From Solobacterium sp. (GTDB taxonomy: Bacteria > Bacillota_I > Bacilli_A > Erysipelotrichales > Erysipelotrichaceae): 41,994 nt of DNA. A program made the translations under genes and the position numbers. The DNA lies in NCBI GenBank assembly GCA_017510405.1, contig JAFWNG010000039.1, forward strand, positions 1 to 41,994. Reading direction: 5' to 3'. Each line of letters starts with the position of its first letter. Position 1 is the first letter of the stretch. The notes beneath the pieces were generated by a model, which saw only the letters and a program-made list of their open reading frames with translations, made no database searches and was not told the DNA's origin. Positions 19,646-29,798 of the stretch are shown in pieces.

Positions 19646-22600
19646 CTATGCAGATAATGCGGCGATGCGTTCCTGCAGTTCCGTGATATAGACATGATCC
19701 CTGCGCAGTTTGCTTTCCCGGTACAGTTCAATTGCTTCCCGGTAATACCGGATGGCTTCCGCGGTCCTGCCATGTTTTTCCGCGATCGTTCCCCTGCTCT
19801 TGCGGCAGTGCCCCGCACCCAGCTTCGTTTCGCTTTTGTTATAGATGTGCTCAGATCCTTCCAGATACGCTTCCGCAGCCTCCCAGTCTTCCTGCAGGAT
19901 CATGCATTCGGCAAGATCCTGCAGCACCATGGCAGCGGTCCCGCTTTCCTCGCCGTTGTGGCGCCGGAACAATGCCAGTGCTTCTTTCAGCAGCTGCTCC
20001 GCTTCCTTCGCGTCCCCTGCCCGATTCCGTTCACACATGAGAAGCGCCAGGTTTCGCTTGGAATACGCGGTATAGACGTTGTCTTCGCCGTAGAAGCCAA
20101 GGCGGATGCGCAGACTTTTGCGGAAGGCTTCCTCCGCTTCTTCCAGCCTGCCAAGCTTGATCAGGATATGTCCGTATTCATTGAGATGCGCTCCGATCTC
20201 GACCGATTCTTCCCCGAAGAGCCGTTTCCTTATTTCCAGTGCCTTCTCAATGTACTCCAGCCCCTCCTCATACCATCCTTCCGCGTAGGCATGGAAGGAC
20301 ATCTGATAGAACATCTGCGACAGTTCTTCTTCCGGCAGGATGTGCGGATCCTTTTTCACCATATCAAGGCATTCCGCAATATATTGCCCGGCAAGTTCAT
20401 TCCGGCCGGCGCTCTGGGCACAGAATGCCCTGCCGGTCATGATCTTCGCGTACAGCCGCGGATTTTCGCGCTTCATCTGTGCCGGCGGAATGATCGCATT
20501 CATCCGCTCATAAATATCGTCCGTTTCATCGTAACAGCTGGCGCTGCGGGCCATCATGGCGTGATCGTTCATGACTTCCGCAAGCGTATAGACATCGTTG
20601 TCTTTCTCCATGAGTTTCTCGGCTTTCCGGTAGGCTTCCTCGCTTTCCTGCCAGTTGTTGCTCATGGAAGAGACCTTGCCGTGCCGGCTGTACAGCGGTG
20701 CAGCGGCCTGATCGTCTTCTCCGTACGGCGCAATTGTTTTTTCTGCTTCACGGCAGACCTTTTCTGCCTGGTCCTTGTTGGAGAGTCGCAGCAGTGCGTT
20801 TACAATGATCAGCGCAGCATTCAGATAATTGTTTTTATACGCCGGCAGAGCGCTGCGGAAGATCTCCGCGGCATCCTGTGCGAGCGTCAGGGCATCCGCA
20901 AAGCGGTATTCCTCCATGGCGGAAGCCGCGTATTTTTCCAGCATCCTGCCATATTCCGTATCCTGCAGAACTTCTTTCAGAAGCGGATCCCGGGTCTTTT
21001 TCAGATACGTCATAAGATTCAGAAGTTCGTACCGGTTCATCTGTTCCGGATCGTCCAGATAGGCATTCCGGCAGCCTTCCGCGATCAGTTCTCTGCCCTT
21101 CTTTTTCTCTACGCCGAATTCATACGCTTCCTCGCTGCAGAGCCAGTCGATCAGCGACAGATGGAATACCTTGAAGATGTCCTCGCGCGGGAAGTAGGAT
21201 GACGTCTTGGCGCGGAACTCCTGCTTTTCAAAGGCATCCCATCCGCATGCCTTCCAGATCGTTTCCGCCGGGATGGGCTCCCTGCTTTCACAGATCGCCG
21301 CGAATACCGGCATACAGCGGTCATGATAGAGCCTGCGGTCTTCGAACGTACGGCTGAAATACGCGTAATAGAGACCGGTCAGAGAGACCGGCAGAGAATC
21401 GATATCCGTTTCCGGGATATTGCCGGCAAGCAGTCCGTCGGTAAGCAGGACGGCATACTGGAAGTTCTCTTCGCACTTGTCCTGTACCTTCCGGATGACG
21501 TCTGCAGGCATTTTTTCTTTCAGACGCAGCGCAATGTATTCATCGACGTCATTCCGGTTTTCCTGCCCGTACGCATCCAGATCGATCGTATCGAAATTCT
21601 TCAGGAACCGGGTCACTTTGGTATCGTTGCGGGATGTGATGAAGAAACGGATCCATGCCGGCAGTCCGCCGGCAAACTTCTGAATCAGCTCTGCCAGCTC
21701 GTTTTTCCAATCATAGCGGGCGCCGCTCCGGCTCTGGCGTTCGATCTCATCGATGCCGTCGATCAGGATCAGCAGAGTATTGCGGTCTCCGCCGATCAGT
21801 GAATTGGCCGGCCGCACGAACAATGTTCGGAACAGTTCGCCGGCATCGCAGTCATAGATCCTCCGGCCGTCTTCTTCCATCCTTTTTACCGCGTCCAGAA
21901 CAAGGTAGCGGTAGTCCGGATAGTGCGACGCCAGCTGGAAGATCACGGAACGGATGACCGCGTCCGCGTTATTGGATTCACTGTTGTCCCATTCACAGTA
22001 GATGACCGCGCCGGCATAGGCATTGAAGATGAACTCATGACTGACAAACGCCGATTTTCCCGATCCGGGCGACCCGGTCATAAGCAGGACATTATTCTTT
22101 GTCGGATCTTTGATCCACGCGTCGGTCAGTTCTTTCAGCCATCCCCGGCCGCAGTACAGACCGTCGGTCTGCGAATTCTTGTAGGCAATGGAGAGATTCG
22201 GCCGCAGGATCTGTTTCAGATACCGGACTTCTTCTTCGTATTTTTTCGTTTCGGGATCGTTGATGACCTTCAGGATCTCCTGCAGTTTTTCCTGGTACCA
22301 CGGTTCAAACTGTTTGGTTCCGTACAGTTCCTTCCAGTCGCTCATATCGATGTACTGGCGGAAGGATGCATTGGCAGGCACTTCCACTTCTTTTTCCAGC
22401 AGCACGCTCTGGATCAGGGCGCCTTTCACCGCGACCGCGATCGACAGTTCATCCCGGCATACCCCGGATTCCCTTAAGGCATGGCGGCTCGCGAAAGTGA
22501 AAAACATCTCGCTGTCGACGATGCCTTCGGCGATCTTGCGGCGCCAGTCATTGCCGCTTTCCAGACGGTCCAGGTCGACCCAGACCTCGTGTTTTTCCTT

Positions 22601-22672
22601 CATGACATCTTCTTTGATGCGCTGGACAATAACGCTGTTTTCATCATGCCCGTAGCTGAAAAACAATTTCAT
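19646..22672 (-). CDS. TIR - STAND/NACHT-like NTPase - TPR protein
   Basis: The 1008-residue protein has three parts. Residues 1-~130 are a TIR domain opening with MKLFFSYGHDE; Glu75 in VCRDELSIA is the likely NADase residue. Residues ~165-520 are an NTPase with Walker A GSPGSGKS (200-207), Walker B LILIDGIDEIE (301-311) and the STAND-type FFITSRND (344-350), followed by a helical/winged region. Residues ~560-1008 are helical repeats of the tetratricopeptide kind (for example LNEYGHILIKLGRLEEAEEAFRKSL). This is the layout of NLR-like bacterial defence proteins, where the repeats sense, the NTPase oligomerises and TIR kills by NAD depletion. The ATG at 22672 has GGAGG 8 nt upstream. Confidence 0.83.
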   Translation of the reverse strand: MKLFFSYGHDENSVIVQRIKEDVMKEKHEVWVDLDRLESGNDWRRKIAEGIVDSEMFFTFASRHALRESGVCRDELSIAVAVKGALIQSVLLEKEVEVPANASFRQYIDMSDWKELYGTKQFEPWYQEKLQEILKVINDPETKKYEEEVRYLKQILRPNLSIAYKNSQTDGLYCGRGWLKELTDAWIKDPTKNNVLLMTGSPGSGKSAFVSHEFIFNAYAGAVIYCEWDNSESNNADAVIRSVIFQLASHYPDYRYLVLDAVKRMEEDGRRIYDCDAGELFRTLFVRPANSLIGGDRNTLLILIDGIDEIERQSRSGARYDWKNELAELIQKFAGGLPAWIRFFITSRNDTKVTRFLKNFDTIDLDAYGQENRNDVDEYIALRLKEKMPADVIRKVQDKCEENFQYAVLLTDGLLAGNIPETDIDSLPVSLTGLYYAYFSRTFEDRRLYHDRCMPVFAAICESREPIPAETIWKACGWDAFEKQEFRAKTSSYFPREDIFKVFHLSLIDWLCSEEAYEFGVEKKKGRELIAEGCRNAYLDDPEQMNRYELLNLMTYLKKTRDPLLKEVLQDTEYGRMLEKYAASAMEEYRFADALTLAQDAAEIFRSALPAYKNNYLNAALIIVNALLRLSNKDQAEKVCREAEKTIAPYGEDDQAAAPLYSRHGKVSSMSNNWQESEEAYRKAEKLMEKDNDVYTLAEVMNDHAMMARSASCYDETDDIYERMNAIIPPAQMKRENPRLYAKIMTGRAFCAQSAGRNELAGQYIAECLDMVKKDPHILPEEELSQMFYQMSFHAYAEGWYEEGLEYIEKALEIRKRLFGEESVEIGAHLNEYGHILIKLGRLEEAEEAFRKSLRIRLGFYGEDNVYTAYSKRNLALLMCERNRAGDAKEAEQLLKEALALFRRHNGEESGTAAMVLQDLAECMILQEDWEAAEAYLEGSEHIYNKSETKLGAGHCRKSRGTIAEKHGRTAEAIRYYREAIELYRESKLRRDHVYITELQERIAALSA

Positions 22673-22732
22673 GTCATATTCCTCCAAGTGTATTTTCTGA
22701 AGAAGTGTCCGCCCGCACAGCCGGGGGAGGAG

Positions 22733-22758
22733 AAAAAGCCGAAATTTACTTTCCGGCC
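22733..22758 (-). terminator. Terminator of the tandem flavodoxin gene
   Basis: Read leftward, GCCGGAAA pairs (with one bulge) with TTTCGGC and is followed by TTTTT. The TAA stop codon of the gene is in the loop. Confidence 0.65.
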
Positions 22759-24095
22759 TTTTCAACGATCTTTTTATACGGCAGGATCATGCCTTCCGTC
22801 ATTTTCCCGTTCAGTTTCTTTTTGAGCTTCGGACTGCGCATCATGGAACCAACTGCGTACATGCCGAGCATCATCGGCAGCTTCTTCTGCGGGAAGTCGT
22901 AGAAACCGTGCTCTTTGTAGAAACGGTGGTCTTCCTGCATCAGTCCCTGCATCTGCCAGATGAGGTCACGGAAGATCTTCATTCCGCCCACGCCGTAGAA
23001 GTTGACCGGCTGGGTGTAGTGATGCATCACGGCATATTCCAGCGTATCCGCCAGAGCGTCGATCTGCCGGTCGGTGTCTGCGGTATCGGAAACGATGCCG
23101 CACAGATAGTTTCCGCCTACCTGGGCGCGCGCTTCCATCAGAGTCATCAGATTCTTTTCTGCCGAAAGATCGCCGTCCACGAGATATCCCTGCGGCATGC
23201 CCATGGTCACGGTGCGGTGGCCGTTGCAGAACTGGCGGTCATCGTACAGTTTGAACCGGTATCCCATGGAATGGTCTTTGACCGTATAGGCATAGACGAT
23301 CGCGTCCGCCGTCTGGATCTTTTCCCGCAGGAAGCGGTCAAAGCCGTCTTTGTAGATGCACGTGCCGTCCGCGGCGCAGCTGAAACAGCCAAGACAGCCG
23401 CCGGCAAACGGGAATGTACGCAGGTTGACGACAGTCACTTCCCGGTGCGCTTTTGCGGCAAAGCGGCGGATCATTGCCTGCAGGTTCCCGCTTTCCGCGT
23501 CGTTTTCATCATAGTCGGTGATGACGGCATAGCGGCCGCCCTTCTTCTCGGCCGATTCCGCTTCGGAAGCACGCACGCGCTCTGCCGAAGGTTCCGGACG
23601 CACAGCAGTCCCGTAAATATTCCTTTCCATGGACCAGAGCACGAAGCGGAACCATGCCTCTGCTTCTTTCTGCCCTTTCGCGTGCAGGAGGTCATCCATG
23701 TCCGCGGAAAGACCGCGCAGGATCTTCATGCCCAGATCGGCGCAGTTGTCTTCGATGAAGGCATGGGCGGTAATGTCATAGAAATGCTTGGAAGTGCTGA
23801 TCTGGGTCACGTATTTGTCCCGCAGGTCGATGCCGCTTTCTTTTGTCAGCTCGATGAACCGGTGCAGCTGCGAAGGCACCAGGAACGTATACACCGGATA
23901 GCAGAACAGGACCAGATCCGCCCGCTCCAGCGCTTCGACGCAGGGTGCGAAGTCCTTCTCCATTTTCCGGATCTTCTGACCGGCATTCAGAAACTCATAG
24001 ATATGTTCCGGAAACATTTTCTGCAGATACAGTACTGTCTGCAGGGTAATGCTGTGGTCACCGGACGGCGAACCGTTCACAACAAGAATATTCAT
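22746..24095 (-). CDS. Tandem flavodoxin-fold oxidoreductase (two NAD(P)H-dependent FMN reductase-like domains)
   Basis: The 449-residue protein seems to be two flavodoxin-like domains in one chain. The first starts MNILVVNGSPSGDHSITLQTV with the phosphate loop NGSPSG and the flavin strand LVLFCYPVYTFLVPS. The second begins near residue 190 (RYAVITDYDEND), contains a CLGCFSCAADGTC cysteine cluster and AIVYAYTVKDHSMG, and ends in a basic tail (MMRSPKLKKKLNGKM). The FMN-binding loop of the second domain is not of canonical form, so that half may be degenerate. The cysteine cluster suggests an extra redox site. The gene is separate from its neighbours. The substrate is unknown. Confidence 0.75.
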   Translation of the reverse strand: MNILVVNGSPSGDHSITLQTVLYLQKMFPEHIYEFLNAGQKIRKMEKDFAPCVEALERADLVLFCYPVYTFLVPSQLHRFIELTKESGIDLRDKYVTQISTSKHFYDITAHAFIEDNCADLGMKILRGLSADMDDLLHAKGQKEAEAWFRFVLWSMERNIYGTAVRPEPSAERVRASEAESAEKKGGRYAVITDYDENDAESGNLQAMIRRFAAKAHREVTVVNLRTFPFAGGCLGCFSCAADGTCIYKDGFDRFLREKIQTADAIVYAYTVKDHSMGYRFKLYDDRQFCNGHRTVTMGMPQGYLVDGDLSAEKNLMTLMEARAQVGGNYLCGIVSDTADTDRQIDALADTLEYAVMHHYTQPVNFYGVGGMKIFRDLIWQMQGLMQEDHRFYKEHGFYDFPQKKLPMMLGMYAVGSMMRSPKLKKKLNGKMTEGMILPYKKIVEKAGK

Positions 24096-24202: not shown

Positions 24203-25387
24203 TCAGAACAGCAGTGTGTCAACGCTGTCGAGAAGTTCCAGGATGCGCTTTCTGCAGAACTCGATGAATACTTTCTCGGTCTCGTCTTCCAGTCCGCCTC
24301 TGCGGATGGAGCGGCGCATGATGCGCGTATAGCCGATCAGTTCTGCTTTTTCAGCGATCTTTTCGATCTTTTCCGGCGTTCTGTCGTCGAAATAATACTG
24401 CAGTGTCTTGTTCCAGAACTCGCGTCCCTGTTCATAGGTGATGCCGAGGAACCGGTGTACCGTCTCATGATCGACGCAGCTGTATCCCTGGTACGCGTTG
24501 TATGCCGAAGCAAATTCGAAGACCGGATGGCCGGTGCACAGCGTATCCATATCGATCAGGAGGACTTCGCCGTCCTGGATCATGACGTTCTTGAGGTGGT
24601 AGTCGCCGTGCAGAAGATGCGGGTCTTCCGGAACTTCCTCAACAAGGCGCACCAGTTTCTCCGCCTTCTCTTTCGGCAGATAGTCCAGCATGAACTTCGC
24701 CCACTTCAGAGCAACGCCTTTCATGGAAGGCATGTCGCCGTCCGGAACGATCGTGGAATGGATCTTCTTCAGCAGGTCCACCGACATATGCGCCACTTCA
24801 TCCAGCTTCGAAGCGTCTTCCGTCAGGATCTTGGCGAATGACTTCGCATTCAGCAGTTCAAACACTGAGCCGTAGCCGTCGCCGACACGGACGACATCGT
24901 ACGGGATGGCCGTCGGGATACCGAGGATCAGCGCCTTTCTGGCCAGTTCGCGCTCACGGCGGATATCCGGAAGAGAATCCGGATTGACATATACTTTGAC
25001 GATCGTATCGGGATCGATCCGGTAAACGGCACCGTTGGCGCCCTGTCCGATCTGTTCGCAGCCGTCCACCGAAATGACGCGGTACGCTTTTTCCACTTTG
25101 ATCATTTCCGTGAAGCCGGTCATGTCGAGGATCTCATAGACTTCCGGCGATACGTTGATGATGCGGACATCTGCCCTGCTCTTGCGGATCCGCAGGATCA
25201 CGCGCAGTCCCGCGCTGGAGATGTATTTCAGATCCTGTGCGTCCAGGATCAGTTCCTTCGCGTCCGGTGCCTTGCTGCGTTCTTCCGTCGCTGCTTCTTC
25301 CACCTTTGCGGCATTGGAAGAATCGATATGACCGATCAGATACAGGGTCAGTATGTTATTTTCATATTTCGCTTTCAGGTTTTCCAT
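24203..25387 (-). CDS. STAS domain fused to aminoglycoside-phosphotransferase-like kinase
   Basis: The 394-residue protein has an anti-sigma-factor-antagonist STAS domain (residues 1-~100) and a kinase of the APH/choline kinase fold (~105-390). In the STAS part, LKYISSAGLRV holds the phosphorylatable serine position (Ser57/Ser58), as in SpoIIAA. In the kinase part, GQGANGAVYRI is the nucleotide loop, LLHGDYHLKNVMI (259-270) the catalytic loop with Asp262 and Asn267, and LLIDMDTL (277-283) the metal-binding Asp. This STAS-kinase layout is known as an uncharacterised family in anaerobes. It is the third gene of the operon after the sensor phosphatase/kinase and the EIIB-ROK protein. STAS phosphorylation probably controls the kinase; the substrate is unknown. 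Confidence 0.83.
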   Translation of the reverse strand: MENLKAKYENNILTLYLIGHIDSSNAAKVEEAATEERSKAPDAKELILDAQDLKYISSAGLRVILRIRKSRADVRIINVSPEVYEILDMTGFTEMIKVEKAYRVISVDGCEQIGQGANGAVYRIDPDTIVKVYVNPDSLPDIRRERELARKALILGIPTAIPYDVVRVGDGYGSVFELLNAKSFAKILTEDASKLDEVAHMSVDLLKKIHSTIVPDGDMPSMKGVALKWAKFMLDYLPKEKAEKLVRLVEEVPEDPHLLHGDYHLKNVMIQDGEVLLIDMDTLCTGHPVFEFASAYNAYQGYSCVDHETVHRFLGITYEQGREFWNKTLQYYFDDRTPEKIEKIAEKAELIGYTRIMRRSIRRGGLEDETEKVFIEFCRKRILELLDSVDTLLF

Positions 25388-25420
25388 TGTTTCCTCCGTG
25401 TTCTCCTCTTATCGTTCGGG

Positions 25421-26845
25421 TCAGTCTTCGTTCAGCAGCTTCAGTGCTTTCAGAACGCCGGCATACAGATATTCGCGTATACTCTCCGTCTTTACGATCT
25501 CCGGCATATAGGCTTCCGGGATGAACTGTGCGACTTTCTCACGCAGCGCTTCGGCGTCCGGGATCATCTTGCTGTAGTAGGCAATGCGGCGGATGCCGGT
25601 GTAGCTGTACAGTCCCGTCATATAGCGGGCAGCCAGCTCGATATTTCCTTCCGGCGTCTTTACCAGTGTATACGGATTCTGCGGGAATGTCGTCAGGGAA
25701 GTGACCGCATCCATCTGCCGGCCGCCCATATGACGTTTTCCGCGCACGGTATTGCCGTTGATCACGAGCCCGATATTCCCGACGCTGCTTCCGGTCGGCA
25801 CGAAGTAGAAGGCCGTGTCGCCGCCTTCCAGCTCGATGGCGGAATAGCCGAGCGCGATCATGTCCGCATCGTTGTAGAGACGCACGCTCATATCATAGCT
25901 TTCCTTCAGGATCTCGCGTACATTGAGATCTGTGATGCCTGCATCTTCGTAGGTGAGGACGCCCTTGTTGATCATGCCCGGCGTGACCAGACAGATCGTT
26001 TTCAGTTCCGGATGCGTGCATACCGCTACCCGGATGACGTCCTGTACATCCGAGAACGAATAGGTTTCCTTGGTGATCTGGTTCTCAGCCGTGATCTCGC
26101 CGTTGTCATAGACGCGGTACGCGATCTGGCTGCGGGATTCCATGCGGATGACGGAAACGATCAGGACCGATCCCTTGCGGCGGCCCTGCAGCGCAGCAGC
26201 GGGTCCCCCCTGCTCTGTCTTTTCCGCATTCTTTTCTTCAAACAGCGTATTCAGCATCGTGATCATGCCGGCGCCGTCATATGTGGAGAAGATCTTCACC
26301 GGGATCTGAATGACGACCTTGTCCGTGAGGACTTCCTGAACGGTCTTGAGACGATAGCCGATCTGCGGCGCCAGCAGCACCGCATCTTTTGTCCCTGCTT
26401 CGTCAAACAGTTTTTCATACGGCACAGCCGTGAATTCCATATCCACGCCGAGCGTCTCAGCCGCTTCGTTGAGCTTCATCGTGAAGAACGACGTCGTCAG
26501 TCCGCAGCTGCAGCACAGCAGGATGTGTCTGGTCTCTGAGCTCGTCTGTTTGTCCAGACAGTCGCGCATTTCATGGAACAGTTCTTTTGCGTGATCCAGA
26601 TCATTCAGTTCGAAATGCAGATAGAAGACATTCTCTTCCTTGCTGTTTATGATCCGGTATTCCACCACGGCAGCTTCCAGAAAGACCACGTCGATCTGTG
26701 CCGCGGCGAATTCCGTCTTCATATCCAGTCCGATGGAATTGTCTTTTTCCCAGCGGGTGATGCTGTAGTCATCTTTGTTGTTTGTTTCGATCCAGTCAAG
26801 CAGCTTGTCTGCCAGTATTCTTGCGTATGCAGCAGTTTCTGTCAT
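25421..26845 (-). CDS. PTS EIIB-like domain fused to ROK-family domain
   Basis: The 474-residue soluble protein has an unrecognised N-terminal ~100 residues, then a PTS lactose/cellobiose EIIB-like domain (~106-200) with the active-site loop CSCGLTTS at 112-119. From ~225 to the end it resembles a ROK sugar kinase/repressor. The ROK part has CLVTPGMINKGVL, then RLYNDADMIALG with Asn325-Asp326 where sugar kinases place their catalytic Asp, and FVPTGSSVGNIGLVINGNTVRG. The Cys-rich zinc motif of typical ROK proteins is missing. The start overlaps the stop of the upstream sensor gene as ATGA, so expression is coupled. It may report sugar supply (EIIB phosphorylation) to the switch; that is inference. 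Confidence 0.75.
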   Translation of the reverse strand: MTETAAYARILADKLLDWIETNNKDDYSITRWEKDNSIGLDMKTEFAAAQIDVVFLEAAVVEYRIINSKEENVFYLHFELNDLDHAKELFHEMRDCLDKQTSSETRHILLCCSCGLTTSFFTMKLNEAAETLGVDMEFTAVPYEKLFDEAGTKDAVLLAPQIGYRLKTVQEVLTDKVVIQIPVKIFSTYDGAGMITMLNTLFEEKNAEKTEQGGPAAALQGRRKGSVLIVSVIRMESRSQIAYRVYDNGEITAENQITKETYSFSDVQDVIRVAVCTHPELKTICLVTPGMINKGVLTYEDAGITDLNVREILKESYDMSVRLYNDADMIALGYSAIELEGGDTAFYFVPTGSSVGNIGLVINGNTVRGKRHMGGRQMDAVTSLTTFPQNPYTLVKTPEGNIELAARYMTGLYSYTGIRRIAYYSKMIPDAEALREKVAQFIPEAYMPEIVKTESIREYLYAGVLKALKLLNED

Positions 26846-28998
26846 TGTTCTTTCTTACTCCTGATCTTCTTTTCCATATGCAGTATATTGCGTCCGTTGA
26901 TGCGGCGGTATGTGATTGCATCCATTACCCTGCGCACAAGGTAGATACCGAGGCCGCCGACCGGCCGTTCTTCCACGTTCAGCGTGATATCCGGGGCTTC
27001 CTTGGCCAGCGGATCAAACGCCGATCCCTCGTCTATGACGGTAATGGACGCCTTGCGGCTGTCCTCATCAAACGAGTACTGAACGGTGAATGTACCGTCT
27101 TTTCCGCCGTACGCGTAACGGACGATATTGCTTAATACTTCATCGAGGGCGATGTCGATCTGCATCTTTTCCCGCGTACCGAAGCCTGCTTCATCCAGCA
27201 GTCCCTCGATCACTTCTGTGATCTCCGTAATGCTTTCGCTGACAGCCGGCAGAGTCTTCTCCAGGATCGGCCTGTTTCCCTCTGCACCAAAGTATTCCAG
27301 GCAGAGCATCGTCAGGTCATCGAACAGAGGTTCTCCCTGAGTGAACTCATCCACTGCTTTCTGCATCTGTTCCAGCGTTTCCCGGACATCTGCGTCTTTA
27401 TTCGCATTGAGTACTTCCAGGATACGGTCTGCTTTAAACATCTGCTGATCCGGTCCCTGCGCCTCCGGCAGACCGTCGGTATAGACGAACAGTCTCTGGT
27501 GCGGCTTCATGTGAATTTCATATTCGGAATACTCCATGCCTTCCATACCGCCGATCACAAATCCATGGCGGTCTTTATACAGCGCATACGTGCCGTCTTC
27601 CTGCTGGAGCACAGGATATTCATGTCCGGCATTGGCTGCTTTCAGGATACCGGTAGAGATCTCCAGAATACCCATCCACACGGTGATGAACATCTGCTCT
27701 TTGTTGCTGACACAGATCATGTTGTTCACGATCTCAAGAATCTCAGCCGGTGACTTGTTCGAAATCGCCTGTGTTCCGATCAGGATCTTGGATGCCATCA
27801 TAAACAGCGCCGCCGGTACGCCCTTTCCGGAAACATCGGCGATCACAAGAGCAAGATGATCATCGTCGATCAGGAAGAAGTCATAGAAGTCGCCTCCGAC
27901 TTCCTTGGCAGGAGTCATGGAAGCGTATATATCAAATTCCGTGCGGTCCGGGAACGGCGGGAAGATACCCGGCAGCACATCTGCCTGGATCTTGCGGGCA
28001 AGCGAAAGCTCCGTCCCGATCCGTTCTTTTTCCGCGATCGCGCCGGACAGTTTCTCCGCGTAATCTCCGAGACCGTCTTCCATGTGCGCCATGACTCTGG
28101 CCATGTTTTCCAGTTCATCGCCGGTCTCGATCTTCAGTTCGCTGAAATGCTTCGTGCCGGTTTTGCCGCTGCTGTAATCCCTGGCAAAACTCTGGGCAGC
28201 GTGGGTGATGCGGTTGACCGGGTCTACGACCATCTTTTTCATCCGTCCGCCCATCCGCTCCATCGTGTAATAAACACCTGCCATCAGAGCCAGTCCGAAC
28301 AGGATCAGGAAATTCTTGATGCCGGCAAATACCTCCGACAGTGTGATATCTGCCAGAACATAACAGACCGTCACTTCATTCGCGTCGACCAGCGGTGTCC
28401 CGGCTGTGACCATGAAGCCGTACTTATCCGTACTGCCCATGTCATACAGCATGCCGTAGCCGTCCCAGTTGCTGAAACGTTCTACTTCTTTCCGTTCCAC
28501 GATCTCCCATTCGCCTGGATAGAACCTGGTTTCTTCGTTTGTGTCGGTATCGCAGATATATACAAGCGCCTGGGTATCCGGATCATAATATCCGAGGTAC
28601 AGATCACCGACATCACTGGAACCGTGCAGCTGGGAAAGCAGATCGTAGATCACATTGTAAGCCAGGGAATCCTCGATATCTTTAAAATGGCTGCGGTATG
28701 CCTCTGTACCGGTCATATTGCGTTCCAGCGGCTTCATGGCGCGGTAGCGGCTCATGACTTCGTTTGAGATCTGATCGTACTGAACCAGCCTCTCAAACAG
28801 CGCCGCCGCACTTCGGGTCAGATCGAAAGCATCTCCGATATACTGCATCGTCAGCATATACGTATACATGCTGAGACCGGCGATCAGAGAAATGATGCCC
28901 AGCAGGATCGACCCCGAGACTGTAGCGCTCTGTACTTTATATTCCAGAGGCCGGCCATTGAGTCTGTTCGTTATTTCTTTTCTTTTCCCGAATGCCAT
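26842..28998 (-). CDS. Membrane sensor with PP2C (RsbU/SpoIIE-type) phosphatase and RsbW-like kinase domain
   Basis: The 718-residue protein begins with a basic cytoplasmic tail and a transmembrane helix (~29-51). An extracytoplasmic sensor region of about 170 residues follows, then a second helix (~225-248) and a HAMP-like linker. Residues ~345-560 form a PP2C phosphatase: VGGDFYDFF, IADVSGKGVPAAL, ANAGHEYP, YTDGLPEA and FDDLTMLCL carry its metal ligands. Residues ~585-715 are a GHKL ATPase of the RsbW type: IALDEVLSNIVRYAY (N box), VIDEGSAFDP (G1) and GGLGIYLVRRVMD (G2). Phosphatase and kinase activities on the same STAS target would sit in one chain. GGGAG precedes the ATG. It is the first gene of the operon. 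Confidence 0.88.
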   Translation of the reverse strand: MAFGKRKEITNRLNGRPLEYKVQSATVSGSILLGIISLIAGLSMYTYMLTMQYIGDAFDLTRSAAALFERLVQYDQISNEVMSRYRAMKPLERNMTGTEAYRSHFKDIEDSLAYNVIYDLLSQLHGSSDVGDLYLGYYDPDTQALVYICDTDTNEETRFYPGEWEIVERKEVERFSNWDGYGMLYDMGSTDKYGFMVTAGTPLVDANEVTVCYVLADITLSEVFAGIKNFLILFGLALMAGVYYTMERMGGRMKKMVVDPVNRITHAAQSFARDYSSGKTGTKHFSELKIETGDELENMARVMAHMEDGLGDYAEKLSGAIAEKERIGTELSLARKIQADVLPGIFPPFPDRTEFDIYASMTPAKEVGGDFYDFFLIDDDHLALVIADVSGKGVPAALFMMASKILIGTQAISNKSPAEILEIVNNMICVSNKEQMFITVWMGILEISTGILKAANAGHEYPVLQQEDGTYALYKDRHGFVIGGMEGMEYSEYEIHMKPHQRLFVYTDGLPEAQGPDQQMFKADRILEVLNANKDADVRETLEQMQKAVDEFTQGEPLFDDLTMLCLEYFGAEGNRPILEKTLPAVSESITEITEVIEGLLDEAGFGTREKMQIDIALDEVLSNIVRYAYGGKDGTFTVQYSFDEDSRKASITVIDEGSAFDPLAKEAPDITLNVEERPVGGLGIYLVRRVMDAITYRRINGRNILHMEKKIRSKKEQ

Positions 28999-29120: not shown

Positions 29121-29798
29121 TCAGTTGGAGCTTGGATGCGGCATGTACGCGTACAGGTTCATTGCCAGTGCGTTGATCGGCATTGTCTGCAGCCATACTC
29201 TGCCGGGACCGGTAACGATCGTGTTGAACAGGCCTTCGCCGCCGAGCAGGATATTCGTAAATCCCTTGACCTGCTGGATGTCCATCGAACAGGTGGCTTC
29301 CATCGCCGCGACATAGCCGCTGTCAACGATCAGCTGTTCGCCGGCTGCCAGTTCTCTTACCTGAACAGAACCGTCGATCTCCAGCCATGCGACGCCGTTT
29401 CCGGTGTATTTCTGCATGAGGAAGCCTTCGCCGCCGAAGAAGCCTACCATCCCCTTCTTCTGCAGGTATACTTCCATATTCACACCGGGAGTCGCAGCCA
29501 GGAACGATGTCTTCTGCGCAATGATCGGCATGGCGGAAATATCAAACGCCAGTATGTCGCCCGGGCTGTGCTTTGCCAGCGTCAGCTCACCGCCGCGGTC
29601 CGCCGTGTATTCATTCAGGGCAAGGCTTTCACCGACGATCGCCTTGCGGAACATTCCGCCGAGGCCGCCTGTTTTCGTTTCCATGTGAATGCCCGGCGTC
29701 ATCCATGCCATCGCACCGCTCTGGCATTTGATCGTTTCGCCGGCTTCCATTTTCAGAGTAAGTACGGTAAACGGCTGGTTCTTGATATCGTAACGCAT
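29121..29798 (-). CDS. AIM24/TIGR00266-family protein
   Basis: The 225-residue protein belongs to the AIM24 family, a beta-rich fold of unknown biochemical role. Characteristic segments are MRYDIKNQPFTVLTLKMEAGE at the N-terminus (read as family start), ECQSGAMAWM-like KCQSGAMAWMTPG, and the glycine-rich LGGEGLFNTIVTGPG near the end. No signal peptide is present. GGAGGAAATCTG precedes the ATG. It lies 12 nt after a small membrane protein gene and is probably co-transcribed with it. Confidence 0.88.
   Translation of the reverse strand: MRYDIKNQPFTVLTLKMEAGETIKCQSGAMAWMTPGIHMETKTGGLGGMFRKAIVGESLALNEYTADRGGELTLAKHSPGDILAFDISAMPIIAQKTSFLAATPGVNMEVYLQKKGMVGFFGGEGFLMQKYTGNGVAWLEIDGSVQVRELAAGEQLIVDSGYVAAMEATCSMDIQQVKGFTNILLGGEGLFNTIVTGPGRVWLQTMPINALAMNLYAYMPHPSSN

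Follow-up and report, generated by a model that had tools for sequence, protein, structure and literature searches.

We analyzed a three-gene operon in a 41,994-nucleotide stretch of DNA from the gut bacterium Solobacterium sp. (contig JAFWNG010000039.1 of assembly GCA_017510405.1), hereafter the window, a contig from a genome of 3.27 Mb (G000). The operon encodes a membrane sensor with a PP2C phosphatase and an RsbW-like kinase domain, a fusion of a phosphotransferase system (PTS) EIIB domain with a ROK domain (EIIB-ROK), and a STAS domain fused to an APH-type kinase (STAS-APH). Partner switching is best known as a way of regulating sigma factors, and a few switches with other outputs have been described. 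Judged from domain content, conservation, and gene neighborhoods, it is moderately likely that the operon belongs to a partner-switching phosphorelay that has an enzyme, the STAS-linked APH kinase, as its output and not a sigma factor. An earlier note on this DNA had proposed a partner switch with the STAS-linked kinase, instead of a sigma factor, as a possible output. The proposal gained support from fusions joining HATPase, STAS, and APH in one chain, the co-occurrence of the sensor with STAS-APH in 71 of 71 genomes, an invariant Ser58, and the lack of a linked sigma gene, the SigB/F/G type being absent from 70 of the 71.

Domain Content of the Operon

Three open reading frames (ORFs) were found on the minus strand where the earlier note had placed them, in the order sensor, EIIB-ROK, and STAS-APH, and the domains claimed for them were confirmed with Pfam and NCBIfam models (Table 1). 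The sensor and EIIB-ROK genes overlap by 4 bp and a gap of 33 bp precedes STAS-APH, a spacing that suggests a single transcript; scans of the operon for promoters and terminators gave no excess over the shuffled expectation. Since no disruption is seen in the operon and STAS-APH proteins recur in related genomes (71 of 245), the ORF arrangement is not due to chance.

The sensor matched PF07228 (SpoIIE/PP2C) with an E value of 2e-45 and PF13581 (HATPase_c_2) with 2e-21, and its HATPase domain was also recognized by an RsbW profile (1e-14) and by a structure match to RsbW (3e-8). Two hydrophobic peaks, at about residues 22–50 and 209–243, bracket a predicted extracytoplasmic region. In Pfam, EIIB-ROK matched PTS_IIB (4e-9) and ROK (4e-6), and the ROK fold was confirmed by Foldseek. 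STAS-APH matched STAS (6e-14) and APH (9e-19), and its kinase part contains a G-loop, K131, HGDxHxxN at residues 260–267, and D279. This part also resembled TIGR02172 (E value 4e-32), with a score of 111.7 bits that lies under the curated cutoff of 228.2.

Table 1. Genes of the operon and its two flanks in the window
Feature	Length (aa)	Coordinates	Strand	Domains and remarks
Membrane sensor	718	26842..28998	-	PP2C (SpoIIE-type), residues 378-569; C-terminal RsbW-like HATPase_c_2, 584-710
EIIB-ROK fusion	474	25421..26845	-	N-terminal domain of ~100 aa without family assignment, then PTS EIIB(Lac/Cel) with Cys motif, then ROK fold
STAS-APH	394	24203..25387	-	STAS, residues 6-100, with Ser57-Ser58 motif; APH/TIGR02172-like kinase, 110-323; C-terminal helices
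AIM24-family gene (upstream flank)		29121..29798	-	PF01987, 8e-66; outside the switch; 86% identical in L007; synteny marker
FMN-reductase/flavodoxin-like gene (downstream flank)		22746..24095	-	PF03358; outside the switch; 70% identical in L007; synteny marker

Co-occurrence and Gene Order in Related Genomes

Each operon protein was searched against 245 genomes of the family, and 392 genomes of the phylum formed a further sample. We extracted 68 STAS-APH loci and drew their neighborhoods, calling genes with a simple ORF chooser combined with domain models. The genomes are mostly metagenome-assembled genomes (MAGs) by appearance, so that genes are hidden by contig ends; the relatives that carry names are Erysipelotrichaceae MAGs, two of them labeled Solobacterium and one from sheep rumen.

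STAS-APH was present in 71 of the family genomes and a homologous PP2C sensor in 79, namely in all 71 with STAS-APH and in 8 of the 174 others (p about 4e-53, phylogeny uncorrected). The phylum sample added STAS-APH from further families within the class, and TIGR02172-like kinases standing alone, without STAS, also exist. The cassette in relatives consists of a standalone STAS, a PP2C usually fused to the HATPase, often a 190-aa HD protein, and then STAS-APH. Across the 68 loci, an RsbW-like HATPase in any form was seen in 58, a standalone STAS (~99 aa) in 47, and a PP2C in 44. The exact three-gene order of the window, whose conservation the earlier note had proposed to check, is thus not kept, and most relatives add the standalone STAS as a fourth component.

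The HATPase domain was not confined to the sensor. At L006, L063, L065, and L067 it is fused to the C terminus of STAS-APH, and the PP2C sensor there is shorter by the HATPase domain; the same fused protein was found in L005/L062 and in G596. The fusion was counted in six genomes. This movement of the domain between the two proteins argues strongly that the sensor and STAS-APH work with the same HATPase. A gene for an MscS-type mechanosensitive channel lies directly upstream of the cassette at nine loci (L043, L045, L046, L048, L072, L073, L075, L095, and L097). At L083 and L085, a sodium:dicarboxylate symporter (SDF) gene with an extra N-terminal region of ~140 aa lies directly upstream of STAS-APH; by eye the region resembles a HATPase-type domain, and Pfam gives no match there.

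Conservation of the Active Sites

Ser58, within the SSAGLR motif, was invariant in 68 of 68 fused and 57 of 57 standalone STAS domains. In the kinase part, G116, K131, H260, D262, H264, N267, and D279 were invariant in 37 diverse homologs, and the APH-type motifs (G-loop, Lys, HGDxHxxN, and IDxD) were invariant or at least 90% conserved across the same number. The N-box and G-boxes of the HATPase (E41/N45/D77xG79/GGLG) showed at least 90% conservation in 66 homologs, and the metal-site Asp residues of the PP2C were conserved in 41. On a midpoint-rooted tree the fused STAS domains came close to forming a single clade (they are 68 of the 70 tips below their common ancestor), and the STAS-APH fusion therefore probably arose once, long ago.

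An AlphaFold model of STAS-APH built from four sequences was good for the STAS domain and poor for the APH core, with a mean predicted local distance difference test score of 60 and the core below 50. Because the kinase core was poorly predicted, Foldseek matches of the STAS-APH model to APH(3')-Ia were set aside as evidence on the substrate. A PDB profile search with the kinase part returned hygromycin-B kinase as its sole match and gave no clue to the substrate.

Sigma Factors

We found no recognizable sigma gene in the window operon or at any compared locus. Sigma genes co-occurring elsewhere were looked for, as had been suggested: the SigB/F/G sigma model matched 39 of the 245 family genomes but just 1 of the 71 with STAS-APH (G120, which has 7% contamination), and it had no match among 60 genomes from the genus. 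By gene content, the usual RsbW/SpoIIAB clients are thus missing where the STAS-APH switch occurs. The sigma factors of G000 comprise RpoD, two RpoD-like proteins (C25:74435 and C15:161677), and several similar to the extracytoplasmic function type, the long ones scoring far below the SigB/F/G model cutoff. SpoIIAB/SigF and RsbW/SigB were searched for in this genome as hidden partners and not found.

The Missing Standalone STAS

Although 47 of the 68 related loci carry a standalone STAS, the window has none. The operon has the look of a cassette that was rearranged, and its standalone STAS may act from another locus or be dispensed with. Elsewhere in G000 we found two standalone STAS genes, at about C6:41296-41595 and C10:1121-1426. 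The second is nearest to the STASs in the cassettes of L077, L006, L063, and L065 and is followed by a gene for a PHP-domain phosphoesterase (G000 C10:197-1426, L162, at the contig start); in six of six fusion genomes this PHP gene comes immediately after STAS-APH-HATPase. C10:1121-1426, beside the PHP gene, is the best candidate for the standalone STAS of the window operon. The first directly follows a paralogous PP2C-HATPase membrane sensor (G000 C6:39119-41595; L022:6120-8596), and neither a sigma gene nor another gene for an output is obvious there.

The EIIB-ROK Protein

About 10 genomes within the genus have close EIIB-ROK orthologs, and among the loci drawn ten besides the window's set had or shared the gene, in varying positions. 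By this distribution the protein is a genus-level accessory that is absent from most cassettes. The closest relative, L007, is syntenic with the window on both flanks and carries EIIB-ROK (67% identity) between the AIM24 and FMN reductase genes. No sensor gene lies upstream there, and an MscS gene (L007:9418-10203) stands directly downstream of EIIB-ROK, where STAS-APH would be; the genome of this relative has a STAS-APH-HATPase fusion at another locus. Between the window and the syntenic locus, the sensor and STAS-APH come and go as a pair and EIIB-ROK persists without both, so EIIB-ROK is separable from the switch. The suggestion that it feeds sugar status into the switch was not strengthened by these comparisons.

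In cassette-linked orthologs, the EIIB phospho-Cys motif LLCC[ST]xGLTTS is intact, and in the ROK domain an SV[IL]xME-like sequence replaces DxGGT, the ATP-binding motif; in the L006 ortholog the catalytic Asp of ROK is lost as well. These features make EIIB-ROK more likely a sensor than a sugar kinase, with a pseudokinase-like ROK domain. Sugar kinase activity was rejected as the default on account of the missing DxGGT motif. Since Mlc, a ROK repressor, binds an EIIB domain (structure 3bp8), it is plausible that the fusion senses the PTS state. A literature search on EIIB-ROK fusions found no description in the papers covered. Five further paralogs were seen in G000 (C3:63388, C20:218406, C37:16616, C43:109062, and C16:116771), several of which adjoin PTS or glycosidase-like genes, and the paralogs have the look of an undescribed regulator-like family.

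Proposed Mechanism and Alternatives

In the mechanism that we favor, the RsbW-like domain would bind and/or phosphorylate STAS-APH at its STAS domain, keeping the APH kinase in a single state of activity. An extracytoplasmic signal would activate the PP2C domain of the sensor, leading to dephosphorylation of STAS; its target would be the standalone STAS in most relatives and, in the window, STAS-APH itself or an in-trans STAS such as that at C10:1121-1426. The output of PP2C would set which STAS is free of phosphate, and APH activity would follow. Once STAS-APH is released, phosphorylation of a small-molecule or protein substrate would change. EIIB-ROK would probably be an optional sensor of sugar or PTS phosphorylation already resident at the locus, not an obligate part of the switch. 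The earlier note had STAS phosphorylation turn the fused kinase on or off; such direct setting is one of two workable mechanisms, and in the second the RsbW-like domain would be contested by standalone STAS and STAS-APH.

Several points weigh against the enzyme-output switch. Shared ancestry inflates the co-occurrence statistics, and paralogs of the PP2C sensor family occur elsewhere. About ten STAS-APH loci are without visible switch partners (L081, L082, L086-L090, L093, L121, and L126, some at contig ends), and the standalone STAS is missing from the window. RsbW-like proteins can also target a primary sigma factor, as RsbW of Chlamydia binds primary sigma66 (PMC4552016), and G000 has its two RpoD-like sigmas besides RpoD. 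The last two facts would agree with a scheme in which the RsbW-like domain holds a primary or RpoD-like sigma factor encoded at an unlinked site, STAS and STAS-APH act as its antagonists, and the APH kinase is an extra input or feedback and not the output; the standalone STAS of most cassettes would also fit. We consider this scheme unlikely, given the lack of a sigma gene at the compared loci and of the SigB/F/G type in 70 of 71 genomes, the covalent joining of the HATPase to STAS-APH in six genomes, and the strictly conserved APH active site.

Orphan STAS-APH paralogs without switch genes would fit another explanation, in which STAS-APH is no client of the switch: STAS would merely dock or localize the kinase, as in SulP transporters and MlaB, and the sensor would be co-regulated without any exchange of phosphate. 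Fusions of STAS to transporters and to a glycosyltransferase (PMC8256260) give precedents for such a role. Counting against it are Ser58 and the SSAGLR motif, invariant in every one of the 68 fused domains, the STAS-APH-HATPase fusions, and the PP2C sensor in all 71 STAS-APH genomes, and we regard docking as quite unlikely. For an obligate three-gene system, with EIIB-ROK feeding sugar status into the switch, one can cite the 4-bp overlap with the sensor gene, the roughly 10 genomes of the genus in which EIIB-ROK and STAS-APH are neighbors, with several arrangements of the genes, the intact EIIB Cys motif, and the ROK–EIIB contact known for Mlc (3bp8). Against these stand its absence from about 58 of 68 cassettes, its presence at the syntenic locus in the closest relative, where both sensor and STAS-APH are lacking, and at least five paralogs in G000, several adjoining PTS or glycosidase genes, which together make an obligate role very improbable.

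Relation to Known Systems

The operon shares with RsbU/RsbV/RsbW and SpoIIE/SpoIIAA/SpoIIAB a PP2C phosphatase, a HATPase_c_2 serine kinase, and a STAS with a conserved phospho-Ser motif. It differs from them in having no cognate SigB/SigF in the operon or in 70 of the 71 genomes, in the fusion of one STAS to an APH-type kinase, in the placement of phosphatase and kinase in one membrane protein, and in the lack of a free-standing antagonist STAS at the window locus. An enzyme as the output of a partner switch has a precedent in SiaABCD of Pseudomonas aeruginosa, where a PP2C phosphatase, a kinase, and a STAS-like protein control an enzyme and not a sigma factor, SiaC activating the diguanylate cyclase SiaD (PMC7647112, PMC8457831). 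In the present system, by comparison, the output would be an APH-type kinase covalently joined to STAS, and the switch kinase is an RsbW-like HATPase_c_2 domain.

Rv1364c of Mycobacterium tuberculosis likewise unites PP2C and an RsbW-like kinase in a single polypeptide, where both act on the STAS domain of the protein itself (PMC7693655), but it has an N-terminal PAS sensor instead of a membrane sensor, includes the STAS within that polypeptide, interacts with SigF, and has no APH domain. In CapK/CapS the RsbW-like kinase has a STAS-domain protein as its substrate, and the output is not a sigma factor (PMC13373217); there, however, CapS is a DNA-binding repressor, the signal is single-stranded DNA, and no enzyme is fused to the STAS protein. 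By profile (E value 4e-32), the kinase part belongs with the TIGR02172 APH-like family of Fibrobacter, from which it differs in scoring below the curated cutoff and in being fused to STAS. A literature search on TIGR02172 and the STAS-APH fusion found no description in the papers covered, nor any account of a STAS-APH output; the earlier note knew of no described system with this exact layout. A widespread switch in which one STAS partner is covalently an enzyme, joined in some species to the switch kinase as well, would show direct gating of catalysis, and the STAS-APH-HATPase fusion would provide a single-chain object for studying the readout of STAS phosphorylation. The scheme also offers a testable role for an uncharacterized kinase family.

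Companion Hydrolases and a Neighboring Gene

The 190-aa HD protein, found at 21 of the 68 STAS-APH loci, resembles small alarmone hydrolases (SAH) and is encoded between the PP2C-HATPase sensor and STAS-APH (L038, L047, L052, L053, L055, L058-L060, L066, L069-L073, L075, L076, L080, L091, and L095-L097). It matched PF13328 (HD_4; 5e-23) and retains every catalytic residue of (p)ppGpp hydrolases (R, H, HD, ED, D..N), with H32, H56-D57, E60-D61, D124, and N128 invariant in 13 homologs; structure matches were to Lmo0812 and RelA/MESH1. The PHP protein is similar to 3',5'-nucleoside bisphosphate phosphatases, with a score under the curated cutoff. At the loci compared here, the HD and PHP genes never occurred together in one cassette, and such mutually exclusive companions hint at the substrate of the STAS-APH kinase. 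Characterized members of both families act on nucleotide 3'-phosphates (SAH/MESH1, PMC7644958; PHP, NCBIfam description). This common activity is suggestive of a second-messenger system without a transcription factor, in which STAS-APH, gated by the switch, would write a phosphorylated nucleotide or nucleotide-like messenger and the SAH-like HD or 3'-nucleotidase-like PHP protein would erase it; we hold this to be a speculative and improbable reading.

Outside the operon, at 19646-22765 on the minus strand of the window, we observed a 1039-aa protein with TIR, NTPase (NPHP3/NACHT-like), and TPR parts, a candidate STAND-type defense or signaling protein with a weak match to a Thoeris family.

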